DNA of 25,913 nucleotides, taken from positions 1-25,913 of the IMG/VR virus record IMGVR_UViG_3300042879_001540. One strand, written 5' to 3'. Under the pieces are notes generated by a model. That model was not told the origin of the DNA. It did no database searches and worked only from the letters and a program-made list of their open reading frames with translations. Positions 20,362 through 25,913 of this stretch are shown here, one piece after another. The position numbers and the translations under genes were made by a program. How positions within the stretch are numbered: the first letter of the stretch is position 1; the number at the start of each line of letters is the position of its first letter. This DNA comes from a virus.

Positions 20362-20768
20362 TAGGTCTTCCTCTTGGCTTTCCAGCAGGCCATGCGTACC
20401 AGGGCACGTCCGGCGGTACGTATGAACGGCAGGCCACGCTTCTTGGCCGTCTCCTCCATCACGTCCACTATCTCATCAATGTGCTTCATGGCCTCGTCTG
20501 GCCCCCATTCGTCCATCTTGCGGGCCATCTTGTTGCACTTGCAGGTAGGGGAGGCGTGGATCCCCATGGTGGACAACATGGCTTTCAGCTCTGTCCCTGG
20601 GCCGGGATTGGGTGCGTACTTGGCCCGTATCCTCTGGAAGTGATGCTCCGGCATCTCCAGGTGGGTGTCGGAGACCTTGGTGGCAAAACGCAAGACCTCC
20701 TCCATGTACCCCGGCTTACGGGAGGTGGCAGCCTGTTCCAGCTTTGCTAGGGATATGAGGTGCTTCAT
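20361..20768 (-). CDS. Unknown protein with a CxC motif
   Basis: About 135 residues from ATG 20766-20768, which overlaps the cysteine-rich gene's stop by four bases (ATGA); an in-frame start 13 codons upstream would overlap more and is less likely. It is rich in Met, Lys and His and has SPTCKCNKMARKMDEWGP near the middle, then helices (DEAMKHIDEIVDVMEETAKK) and a basic end (RMACWKAKRKT). The CxCN plus MDxWGP arrangement could bind metal. Similar short motifs occur in phage proteins of unknown role. Being coupled to a highly cysteine-rich gene, it may act with it. Confidence 0.7.
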   Translation of the reverse strand: MKHLISLAKLEQAATSRKPGYMEEVLRFATKVSDTHLEMPEHHFQRIRAKYAPNPGPGTELKAMLSTMGIHASPTCKCNKMARKMDEWGPDEAMKHIDEIVDVMEETAKKRGLPFIRTAGRALVRMACWKAKRKT

Positions 20769-21439
20769 GGAGGATCGTCGGCTGATTCGCAACAGGCACC
20801 AGGGCACAGGAACGGATTAAGTGCGTAGTTGCTGCCAACGCAACAGTAGTAGTCCTGCGTGCCCTCCGGCGAGCCCGCGTAGGCACGCCCAGGAGGGCAG
20901 ACGTTCGCACCGCCTGGCTCAAAAGGGAACAGTTCGACACCGCCCGGATCCTGACATAAGCCGTTCACGCAGCAGCGGCAGGTCCCGCAGTCTGCGTCTG
21001 TCTCGCATGACTCCGGGCACTCCCCGCACTCTCCATCGTTGCAGCACTCACTCCCTGGGCAGTCCTCGTCGGATTCGCACTCGCACGGCGCGCACACGCC
21101 ATCGACGCAGCATTCGCCCTCGGCGCAACAGACCCCGGCACAGCAGACGACGCTGGATTCACAGCATGTGGCGCCCTCGTCGCCTATGCAGCAAATCTCA
21201 CCCACCTCACAGCACACGCCCTGGCCGTCATTGCAGCAGTACTGGGCCTCGGTGCAGCAGACCTCTGACTCACCAACCCCCACTTCATAGACAGTGCAGC
21301 ACTCCCTTGGGGTCTCACAGCAGACCTGGGACTCTCCTGTGCCGCAGCACACGTCCGGGTCCTTGCAGCACACCTTGCTGCCATCAGGCCCGCAACACTC
21401 GCCATCCAGCTTGACGCAGCAGCAGGTGCAGCAGGGCAT
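20765..21439 (-). CDS. Extremely cysteine-rich protein with paired cysteines
   Basis: A 224-residue acidic protein with 51 cysteines by my count and about 19 CC pairs, only about six Lys/Arg, and no signal peptide. Residues 1-105 are a string of CC pairs 3-12 residues apart, most often 5-8 (for example QYCCNDGQGVCCEVGEICC). This resembles the spacing in granulin-type disulfide stacks, though no match is claimed. Residues 115-165 have DxDCxxxxCCxxGxC units (SDEDCPGSECCNDGEC, TDADCGTCRCCVNGLC). The C-terminus has SNYALNPFLCPGACC. Both ends are coupled by overlapping codons to neighbours, so it is a real gene. It could be a disulfide-knotted virion surface or internal protein, or a metal-binding protein; function is unknown. 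Confidence 0.88.
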   Translation of the reverse strand: MPCCTCCCVKLDGECCGPDGSKVCCKDPDVCCGTGESQVCCETPRECCTVYEVGVGESEVCCTEAQYCCNDGQGVCCEVGEICCIGDEGATCCESSVVCCAGVCCAEGECCVDGVCAPCECESDEDCPGSECCNDGECGECPESCETDADCGTCRCCVNGLCQDPGGVELFPFEPGGANVCPPGRAYAGSPEGTQDYYCCVGSNYALNPFLCPGACCESADDPP

Positions 21440-22353
21440 TACTCGCCCTCCTGGAGTGCAGGCAGGGCCATGGGGGCCAGCAGTCCGTACTTGCGTAGGA
21501 TGCGGATGTGGTCTTCGGTGCCGGGGAACATGACGTAGTTGTGTGTGCCCTGGCCGGCTGAGCGGGAGCCGGCGTCTAGATATCGCATGCCAAGCACGCC
21601 ACCAGACCGCAGGGCATCAGCAGCCGCTACCGCCGCGCGTGCAGGCGGCATTTGGCCTTTGCGGGCTGGGCCGCTCATGCTAATGCGATCCACCAGGCGC
21701 CTATACGCTTGTTCGCCAACTGGCTCCCACGGCACCGATGACGGCAGCTCCGGAACCGCATCATAGGCACGCAAGACCTGCATGAAGTTTTGCGGCTGCG
21801 AGGATAGCGGAGCATCCCAGTCCATGAGGGTCCCCTCCGGTACGCCCAGCTCTACTTCGTACATGTGACCGCGGAGCCCGTCCCTGGCCCTTTGCTGCTC
21901 CATGCGCAGGGCCGAAAGTTGAGCGCCTATCTCTTTTAGCCTGGGCCCCAGAGACTGCTGCACGTCTTGGGGAACGTCTCGTATTGTGCCCCAGCCTGGC
22001 GACAGAGTCCCCCGCTCGGCCGCAGCCTGCTCCATTGCGTCACGGATTCTGCTGGCCTCAAGCTCCAGCTGCACTGCGCGGCGATGCATCTCCTGAATCG
22101 CCTTGGCCGCCTCATCAGATGGCACGGCCGGTGAAATGTCTCTGTACGTTCTGGCAACGTCCTCCGCCCCAGCAAAGTACAGGCCATGCCCATACGCTTG
22201 GGCACCCTCGCCAGTGCCGATCTTCGACGCATCGAATCGGTCGAAGTTGTGGGGGCTGCCGTGATACGCCCGGATTGGCTTGACCGCCCGGGCCACATCG
22301 TCAGCGCCGGAAGTTGCCCTGATCAGCGCGCGTATGGAGTTTAGGGGTGGCAC
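21439..22353 (-). CDS. ADP-ribosyltransferase-fold protein, copy 1
   Basis: A 304-residue protein starting at GTG 22351-22353 with AGGAG seven bases ahead. After RAL..ADDV it has the family core RAYHGSPHNFDRFDASKIG (His31), then GTGEGAQAYGHGLYFA (Tyr59). It continues with a charged helical insertion (about 80-155), HMYEVELGVPEGTLMDWDAP, GGVLGMRYLDAGSRSAGQGT, and NYVMFPGTEDHIRIL at the end. His and Tyr correspond to the NAD-binding residues of the His-Tyr-acidic ADP-ribosyltransferase group; which acidic residue completes the site is not clear. Such domains in phages may be injected to modify host proteins. Copy 2 lies 1.4 kb upstream. Confidence 0.8.
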   Translation of the reverse strand: MPPLNSIRALIRATSGADDVARAVKPIRAYHGSPHNFDRFDASKIGTGEGAQAYGHGLYFAGAEDVARTYRDISPAVPSDEAAKAIQEMHRRAVQLELEASRIRDAMEQAAAERGTLSPGWGTIRDVPQDVQQSLGPRLKEIGAQLSALRMEQQRARDGLRGHMYEVELGVPEGTLMDWDAPLSSQPQNFMQVLRAYDAVPELPSSVPWEPVGEQAYRRLVDRISMSGPARKGQMPPARAAVAAADALRSGGVLGMRYLDAGSRSAGQGTHNYVMFPGTEDHIRILRKYGLLAPMALPALQEGE

Positions 22354-23788: not shown

Positions 23789-24553
23789 TCAGTACGTCCG
23801 CAGAATCCGAATCCTGTCCTCCGTTCCGGGGAACATGACGTAATTGCGGGTTCCCTGGCCCGCAGAGCGAGACTGCCCATCTAGGTAGCGTATGCCAGGG
23901 ATGCCGCTGTGCCGCAGGTCCCTGACCCCGTGCGTGATGCCAAGCCTGTCGCCGGGCGCGACTACGGTGCGATAGACCTGCTGGCCTGTGGAGTCCGGCG
24001 CCGAATAGCCGAGAAGCGCCCGCATGGACGATTGAACCGCATCGCTCTGGGAACCGACTGGGCTATCCCAGTCCAGCAATGCCTCCTCCGGGACACCCAG
24101 CTCTACTTCATATACACGCCCAAGCCTTGGCGGAGGCGCCGGGGGCGGCGGCACAAACCCGGCAGGAAGGGATTCTAGGTATTCAATCGCCGCCCGGTTA
24201 TCTATGCCAAGCCGTTCCTGATCCATCACCAACACGTCGCGCACGGTGCTTTTCACATCCCCAGAGCCTGGCTTGTCATGGTATCGCCACAACAGCTGGA
24301 CTTTCTCGGATGGAGTGTGCCTCGCAAGCCCGGCGCTTAGTTCCTCTCGGTATTGCTCGGCCACATTTGGGCTCTGGGCGAAGTACAAACCATGGCCATA
24401 CGCCTGGGCACCTTCTCCCGTGCCGATCTTGGACGCGTCAAACTGAGAGAAGCTGTGCGGGCTGCCGTGGTAAGCCCGGATCACGCCTCGCGGTACATCG
24501 TCCGCCTTCGACAGGGCGCGGATGACGCGGAGGGATGCACTCGCTGGGTCCAT
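23789..24553 (-). CDS. ADP-ribosyltransferase-fold protein, copy 2
   Basis: About 254 residues from ATG 24551-24553; the frame stays open upstream but that part does not look coding. It matches copy 1 at both ends. ALSKADDVPRG leads to RAYHGSPHSFSQFDASKIG (His29) and GTGEGAQAYGHGLYFA (Tyr57). Later come VYEVELGVPEEALLDWDSP, GIPGIRYLDGQSRSAGQGT and NYVMFPGTEDRIRILRTY. The middle differs, with a proline run (FVPPPPAPPPRLG), and copy 1's C-terminal tail is absent. It should be an NAD-binding transferase fold; target unknown. No strong ribosome site is visible. The upstream 569 nt hold no clear gene. Confidence 0.8.
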   Translation of the reverse strand: MDPASASLRVIRALSKADDVPRGVIRAYHGSPHSFSQFDASKIGTGEGAQAYGHGLYFAQSPNVAEQYREELSAGLARHTPSEKVQLLWRYHDKPGSGDVKSTVRDVLVMDQERLGIDNRAAIEYLESLPAGFVPPPPAPPPRLGRVYEVELGVPEEALLDWDSPVGSQSDAVQSSMRALLGYSAPDSTGQQVYRTVVAPGDRLGITHGVRDLRHSGIPGIRYLDGQSRSAGQGTRNYVMFPGTEDRIRILRTY

Positions 24554-25122
24554 GCGGACTAGTGCCCAACCACGCCGAACCGGGATGTGGGAAAAAATCC
24601 AGGAGGGGATATGACAAACTCCTGTTTCGACGATTGGGGGGGGGACCCGGGGGCATCTGACCATGCCCCGGACCACTACCCCCTCCCGCCCCCGGTCCGG
24701 CGGCGTCCGGGCCGGTCGTCGCCCCGGGTCGCAACCCTCGGCGGTGCCGTAGGTTGCGCGTCTGGCGACGTTCGTACGGCGATCCCCCCCCAACGGGCCG
24801 TGGTGCGGCGCTAGCTAGTGGCGGGATCGGCGGCGGCGTGCGCCCTGGTGCGGTGCATCTGCACCCTTCGACCTGGTGTCGATGGTCGCGGGGTGGTCTG
24901 CGGCGGCGGTGTACGGTGTCCACCGTGGCGACGGGCTGCGCTGGCCTGCCGGCATGCTCCACGGTGGATCGCCCCGGCCTACTTCTACCTCCGGGGTCTC
25001 CGTGAGGCGTCCGGGTGAGGCGGTGCCGCGCTTCCCCGCTGGGGCCTGCGGCGGCGTGTTCGGTGGTGCGGGCCATCCCCCGGGGCGGCGACACTGCGCG
25101 CCCCGGGGGACGTTCCCGGCGA
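24554..25122. other. GC-rich stretch with no defensible gene
   Basis: This 569-nt stretch carries G9 (24636-24644) and C8 (24784-24791) runs. Several long frames are open only because stop codons are rare in GC-rich DNA. Minus-strand frames read as Arg/Pro/Gly-rich low-complexity protein (for example a 110-codon frame from GTG at 25147 ending at 24815). One plus-strand frame of 67 codons (24611-24814) has AGGAGG ahead of its ATG. None matches a family I know. It could be a non-coding control region or a poorly conserved gene. Confidence 0.5.
24592..24624 (-). terminator. Weak terminator-like hairpin ahead of ADP-ribosyltransferase copy 2
   Basis: On the minus strand CAGGAG pairs with CTCCTG across a 13-base loop (arms 24619-24624 and 24600-24605). 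A T6 tract follows two bases later (24592-24597). The stem is only six pairs, so termination would be partial at best. Confidence 0.35.
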
Positions 25123-25737
25123 TTAGGCTCGGCCGTGCGTTGCCCACCGATCCCCGTCCCGCATTGGACGGTGTGCCGTTCCATCTCCCGGCGTCGCGGG
25201 CAAGCCCCGGGTCGGCGGTGCCGTTCCGGGCCCGGTGCCGTAGATGCTGGGAGTGGTGTAGGGTTCATGGACGGCGGCGGTGGGTCCGATCCCCTGAGAG
25301 GCCAGAACGGCGTCGATGGCGCTGTGCGCTCCGGCGGCACGGGTTGCGGCTGCCCGTTGGAGACTGCCCCAACCGTCGGCGGTCGCGGCCAACTGCAACG
25401 GGGTGAGGTTCCCGCTACGCTCCCGGTAGACGGCCATGGTCGCCATTTCCACGGCGCGTGTCTGCTCATCGCCCCGGGGCTGCGTGGAGCGGGGCAGGAC
25501 GCTACCCCAACCGACACGGCGGAACAGCCGCACGTATCCTATGGCGGCGACACGGGGCGACGACGGGCATCGGTCCCCCTTGTACTCGCGTTGCATCATC
25601 CGCAGTGCAACCGTCTGGGCAAGGTCGTCTGCGGTGGAGGCATCGAAGCCTGCCCTACGTGCGGCGCTTGTGATGATCCGAAGGGCGTCGGTCCATAGTT
25701 CGGCGGGGCATCCGGCGTGGTTCAAAGTGCGGTCCAT
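25123..25737 (-). CDS. Sigma-70 region 2-like protein, possible phage transcription factor
   Basis: About 204 residues from ATG 25735-25737, with GGAG nine bases ahead; the in-frame ATG 27 bases upstream lies within an operator repeat and has no ribosome site. Residues 20-75 look like sigma region 2: LWTDALRIITSAARRAG, then FDASTADDLAQTVALRMMQ (compare the AeDlvQevFl pattern) and PRVAAIGYVRLFRRVGWG. The C-terminal half has a helical part (GNLTPLQLAATADGWG) and a Gly/Pro/Thr-rich end, with no clear region 4 helix-turn-helix. It may redirect host RNA polymerase to late genes, or only bind DNA. The family call is tentative. Confidence 0.6.
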   Translation of the reverse strand: MDRTLNHAGCPAELWTDALRIITSAARRAGFDASTADDLAQTVALRMMQREYKGDRCPSSPRVAAIGYVRLFRRVGWGSVLPRSTQPRGDEQTRAVEMATMAVYRERSGNLTPLQLAATADGWGSLQRAAATRAAGAHSAIDAVLASQGIGPTAAVHEPYTTPSIYGTGPGTAPPTRGLPATPGDGTAHRPMRDGDRWATHGRA

Positions 25738-25751
25738 GTTCTCTATCTCCG

Positions 25752-25809
25752 GGGTGTGAAACATGCCGTAGCGTCGGCATGTGCAGGGATTGTAACAGGG
25801 TGTGAAACA
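25752..25809 (-). promoter_or_regulatory. Three copies of a 12-bp operator-like repeat
   Basis: TGTTTCACACCC occurs at 25809-25798 and again at 25763-25752 (minus strand). Between them, directly after the first, is TGTTACAATCCC at 25797-25786, identical at 9 of 12 bases. The first fills most of the promoter spacer and the second spans the -10 box. A protein bound here would control the promoter; the sigma-like product is one candidate. Confidence 0.6.
25762..25781 (-). repeat. Perfect inverted repeat near transcription start
   Basis: CATGCCG and CGGCATG are perfect 7-bp arms around a six-base centre. The element lies between the -10 box and the start codon of the sigma-like gene. It could be a dimer-binding site or a 5' leader hairpin. 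Confidence 0.6.
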
Positions 25810-25816
25810 ATGTCAA
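25789..25816 (-). promoter_or_regulatory. Strong sigma-70-type promoter
   Basis: The minus strand shows TTGACA (25816-25811) and, 16 bases on, TACAAT (25794-25789), with an extended TGT just before the -10. Transcription would start near 25782 and give a leader of about 45 bases before the sigma-like gene. The -35 box overlaps the stop codon of the preceding gene. Confidence 0.75.
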
Positions 25817-25913
25817 CGTCTCTTACGCTTGGGCGGGTTCCACGGGCGGCGGTTGTTAGGACACTCCCAGCGGTAGCGCTGAATGACCCGTAGCGTGTCG
25901 TTATCGGTGACGG
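25813..25913 (-). CDS. C-terminal end of an unknown basic protein
   Basis: The last 32 codons of a minus-strand gene that enters from the right edge. They end with RYRWECPNNRRPWNPPKRKRR before TGA at 25813-25815, given here only in its final part. A second frame is open over the same short stretch but is less protein-like. The basic end (KRKRR) suggests nucleic-acid binding, but too little is present to assign a family. Its stop codon lies inside the -35 box of the next gene's promoter. Confidence 0.6.
   Translation of the reverse strand, partial: VTDNDTLRVIQRYRWECPNNRRPWNPPKRKRR

Follow-up and report, generated by a model that had tools for sequence, protein, structure and literature searches.

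In the viral contig analysed here (25,913 bases, 25.9 kb; hereafter the window), a near-consensus promoter followed directly by a leader hairpin precedes the gene for the protein P0001, and this combination, which is rare by chance, is found at this gene or its homologue in three phages, whose stems fall into two unrelated sequences. On balance, we think it probable that the site is a promoter for the host RNA polymerase that opens a phage operon, and that the resulting mRNA carries at its start a hairpin whose most likely role is to protect the 5' end. The promoter and its leader hairpin are real and conserved, and they are not a new kind of system.

A predicted extended -10 promoter ahead of P0001

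The window has a GC content of 63%, and its recognisable genes lie on the minus strand; terminase, portal, and major head protein were recognised among them by PHROGs. It spans a whole virus record, which may itself be a fragment. The terminase has a weak match only, to Arthrobacter phages (27%). On the minus strand, a TTGACA -35 element (25811..25816) is separated by a 16-base spacer from a TACAAT hexamer (25794-25789), which a TG at 25797-25796 turns into the extended -10 element TGTTACAAT (25789..25797). With one mismatch in 12 to the sigma70 hexamers, a spacing in the 16- to 18-bp range, and the TGn extension, this site, which a sequence-only reading had noticed as a near-consensus promoter, has the hallmarks of a sigma70-type extended -10 promoter, and it is the sole site of this type in the window with no more than two mismatches at 16 to 18 bp. 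First-order Markov resampling in 60 trials, scored against TTGACA/TATAAT at the same spacings, gave 0.43 sites with up to two mismatches per strand, and in none of the 60 shuffles did a site with at most one mismatch or with an extended -10 arise. From the geometry of the promoter, transcription would start at 25782 (+/- 2), 7 nt past the -10.

A stretch of 79 bases, adjoining the end of an upstream ORF, begins with the -35 and reaches to the ATG of P0001 at 25737. The stop codon of that ORF, TGA (25815-25813), sits within the -35 hexamer itself; the ORF is cut by the contig end, so that its 3' part is seen (25813..25913, minus strand, ending in RYRWECPNNRRPWNPPKRKRR), and it has a full-length homologue of 84 aa in the relative G002. 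A ribosome-binding site, GGAG (25747..25750), precedes P0001, and CCCCGGAG also stands 5' of the starts of neighbouring genes in G002.

Two close relatives, G001 (25.8 kb) and G002 (59.6 kb), encode a P0001 homologue that is 73% identical, and both read TTGACTTTGTTTCACACCCTGCTACAATCCCAGTACATGCCAACGCTAGGCATGTAACACCCCGGAG at the promoter site, with TTGACT as the -35 and TGCTACAAT as the extended -10. The 31 bases that span the promoter and the repeat in its spacer are kept in 29 positions in these phages, whereas the coding stretch just upstream keeps 74 of 97 in G002 (p ~0.016 at 77% identity, the level of G002 against the window in this part of the genome; where the structural block aligns over long distances, the two are 93-96% identical). 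Neither this 31-mer nor the palindrome discussed below recurs in the window or in G002, the next best 31-mer having 11-12 mismatches. A more diverged relative, G003 (58.9 kb), was brought in by a search with the protein of a neighbouring gene. It has a syntenic P0001 homologue of about 33-37% identity and, further upstream, the same small gene at 58%. Here the promoter reads TTGAAC-17-TAGAAT, weaker at three mismatches and devoid of the TGn, and is followed in order by the hairpin GCTGCGG-CAGTCA-CCGCAGC, AGGAG, and the ATG. The GTGTAA repeats that surround the G003 promoter do not exceed chance (17% of shuffles).

Two side features of G002 may be recorded here. Its contig ends (L011 1-460 and L013 19150-19605) encode similar but non-identical gene pieces, which suggests that the genome is circular or terminally redundant and varies between strains. 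At L013:17670-17740 (~57.7 kb), immediately upstream of the leftward gene block, there is a 14-bp inverted repeat (AATAGTTCACCGCG...CGCGGTGAACTATT).

A predicted leader hairpin conserved in position and pairing

The leader contains the inverted repeat ACATGCCG-ACGCTA-CGGCATGT (25761..25782, minus strand), with an 8-bp stem and a 6-nt loop. The sequence-only reading had seen it with arms of 7+7; the repeat is there, and its arms are 8+8 around a 6-base loop. By itself, such an 8+8 repeat is expected ~0.02 times per 80 bp. The predicted start coincides with the first base of the palindrome, and the RNA would therefore begin ACAUGCCGACGCUACGGCAUGU, followed by GGAG and AUG. The hairpins of the window and of its relatives fold in isolation and leave the ribosome site outside the stem. 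In each phage a perfect stem begins no more than a few nucleotides from the predicted 5' end, the arrangement of a 5'-terminal stem-loop; the fold energies of the leaders are moderately below those of shuffles (z -1.3 to -1.9) and not exceptional. No family of Rfam scores up to its threshold. An intrinsic terminator or attenuator was ruled out because no T run follows the stem, which is succeeded by TTCACACCCC and begins at about +1.

Across the relatives, the palindrome is conserved as a position and as a hairpin rather than as a sequence. In G001 and G002 it is still 8 bp long, having gained an outer T-A pair and lost an inner G-C pair. In G003 the stem is wholly unlike that of the window in sequence and occupies nearly the same place, 10 nt past the -10 versus 6 nt. 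A scan of both strands of the window, G002, and G003 (26, 60, and 59 kb) for a promoter with up to three mismatches and a stem of 7 bp or more that starts no more than 15 nt past the -10 returned exactly one site per phage, each at P0001 or its homologue, against a chance expectation of 0.05 per 26-kb strand; the three phages amount to only two independent lineages, as the window and G001/G002 are close. Conservation of position and pairing without conservation of sequence argues for a hairpin that forms in the RNA, where the message starts.

A DNA palindrome bound by a diverging repressor would look the same, and the palindrome could accordingly be an operator at +1 for a dimeric regulator, possibly P0001 acting on its own gene, with a specificity that has drifted between phages. 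A perfect palindrome lies over or just past the predicted start in all three phages, it is unique in both the window and G002, and it varies in sequence along with the adjacent protein, as in G003 with its homologue of 33-37% identity. Against this, P0001 has no recognised DNA-binding domain except for a weak resemblance to sigma region 2, and its structural matches are not decisive; we regard this explanation as unlikely, if still worth entertaining.

P0001 (204 aa; 25123..25737, minus strand) is predicted to have an N-terminal three-helix domain (mean pLDDT 79). Pfam Sigma70_r2 scores 14.2 bits on it and 14.7 bits on the G003 homologue, both under the cut-off of 24, and gives no match for the G002 homologue. 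In VIA-align, the P0001 model matches sigma and PhyR chains with Z of 4-6.3, not above unrelated helical chains, and the best structural matches, a RECQL5 domain and designed helical repeats, resemble what ordinary packing of helices would give. That P0001 is a sigma factor is suggested by the two sub-threshold Pfam scores and is not established. A bolder proposal, that P0001 is a phage regulator resembling sigma region 2 that switches the leftward operon by acting on its own +1 palindrome or on the melted promoter, operator and protein co-evolving, strikes us as very improbable. A search of phage records with P0001 returned no match.

The window has some further features. Between P0001 and the next gene lie ~560 bp (24560-25120) that are very GC-rich and contain no convincing gene; blocks within them match G002 at 84-92% identity. 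The genes at 21442-22353 and 23792-24550 have in common an N-terminal motif that is almost the same in both (RAYHGSPH.F..FDASKIGTGEGAQAYGHGLYFA), and both give weak ART-PolyVal matches in Pfam, which points to a duplicated ADP-ribosyltransferase-like domain. A 224-aa ORF at 20765-21439 is extremely cysteine-rich (MPCCTCCCVKLDGECCGPDG...), and G002 has one too.

Repeated 12-mers around the promoter

The promoter was originally read as a tightly controlled switch threaded with three 12-bp repeats. All three copies exist in the window: copy 1, TGTTTCACACCC, lies in the promoter spacer (25798..25809), copy 2, TGTTACAATCCC, coincides with the extended -10 (25786..25797), and copy 3, again TGTTTCACACCC, lies in the leader (25752..25763), where it shares three bases with the 8+8 inverted repeat. 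Their common motif, TGTTnCAnnCCC, occurs exactly three times (25809-25798, 25797-25786, and 25763-25752), and the search of the remaining sequence that had been recommended finds it nowhere else in the window. It is expected 0.2 times per window, and three copies appeared in 0 of 20,000 shuffles with the promoter bases held fixed, odds that flatter the motif since it was defined after the copies were seen. No exact 12-mer other than that of copies 1 and 3 is repeated at a distance of up to 60 bp in the window, where 0.11 such repeats are expected per 26 kb. Copy 2 is not an independent repeat because it is largely the extended -10 itself, promoter letters making up five of its nine defining letters.

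These observations could point to a repressor switch, in which RNA polymerase is blocked by a protein of the phage or the host that occupies the TGTTTCACACCC copies of spacer and leader. The exact 12-mer pair exceeds chance, G001 and G002 keep copy 1 together with its entire spacer, and G002 encodes both a tyrosine and a serine recombinase, so that the phage may be temperate and have a repressor. However, the repeats are not kept in relatives as the sequence-only reading had expected of such a switch: in G001 and G002, copy 2 reads TGCTACAATCCC, its single change falling on the free N of the TGn of the extended -10, and copy 3 has lost two bases to become TGTAACACCC, no longer a copy, and no exact copy of TGTTTCACACCC exists anywhere in the 58.9 kb of G003. 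Moreover, the site is present once per genome and nowhere else in G002, and no repressor gene was recognised among the ORFs scanned. Of the proposed switch, the conserved promoter and palindrome are thus supported and the three operator repeats are not; control through the 12-mers appears decidedly doubtful to us, slightly more so than the +1 operator. Operators of the lambda OR type and the stoperators of mycobacteriophages are likewise repeated short sites that overlap a promoter, but the direct repeats of the window differ from them in not being kept in relatives, in not being scattered, and in having no known repressor.

It is also conceivable that this is an ordinary host promoter and that the repeats and the palindrome are functionless products of chance or of a recent local duplication. 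The -10 accounts for most of copy 2, copy 3 is confined to one lineage, and a stretch of 80 bp contains an 8+8 repeat ~2% of the time; the sharing of the hairpin position by three phages with two unrelated stem sequences speaks against it, and we hold this explanation to be highly unlikely.

In the viral contigs searched, the tandem 24-mer has no match, and copy 1 together with the -10 is matched in G001 and G002 only. GTTTCA is found in promoter spacers of viral contigs 49 times versus 10 for the reversed control; as the independent families number only 10 versus 7, a role as a general spacer element is not demonstrated. A 12-mer pair was also matched twice in bacterial genomes, both times by unrelated tandem repeats. 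The ParB site parS is a 16-bp palindrome, TGTTTCACGTGAAACA; copies 1 and 3 share only its half TGTTTCAC and continue with ACCC, and a parS site was rejected.

Discussion

The preferred explanation, an operon promoter whose message starts with a hairpin, can be laid out as follows. A strong extended -10 promoter, used by the RNA polymerase of the host with its primary sigma factor, would drive the leftward block of P0001. It would be placed at an early gene of that block, which extends as far as the structural genes in the fuller relative. Transcription would begin at about 25782, on the first base of the 8-bp stem-loop. The message would then open with the hairpin at its very 5' end, and behind it would come the ribosome site, mostly unobstructed, and the P0001 start codon. 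Most probably the hairpin would shield a long phage message from decay that depends on its 5' end and leave the ribosome site open. What is observed is the sequence, its rarity, and the recurrence of promoter and hairpin in the three phages; the promoter activity, the start site, and the stabilisation of the mRNA are inferred.

As in Sigma70/SigA extended -10 promoters of phage operons, TTGACA, a 16-base spacer, TGnTACAAT, GGAG, and a start codon ~50 bases on follow one another, but the spacer is 16 rather than 17 bases and carries a 12-mer kept in one relative. As in the stabilising leaders of ompA, papA, and aprE, a predicted stem-loop lies a few nucleotides from the 5' end with the ribosome site outside the stem; unlike these, the leader belongs to a phage operon and is short (~45 nt). 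That 5' stem-loops slow mRNA decay is established in bacteria (PMC7509114, which cites Emory et al. 1992 and others).

For this group of uncultivated phages, the finding supplies an operon promoter that is located and testable, together with a leader hairpin whose structure is kept and whose sequence is not. More generally, the P0001 leader offers a clean case for telling the function of an RNA hairpin from that of a DNA operator.
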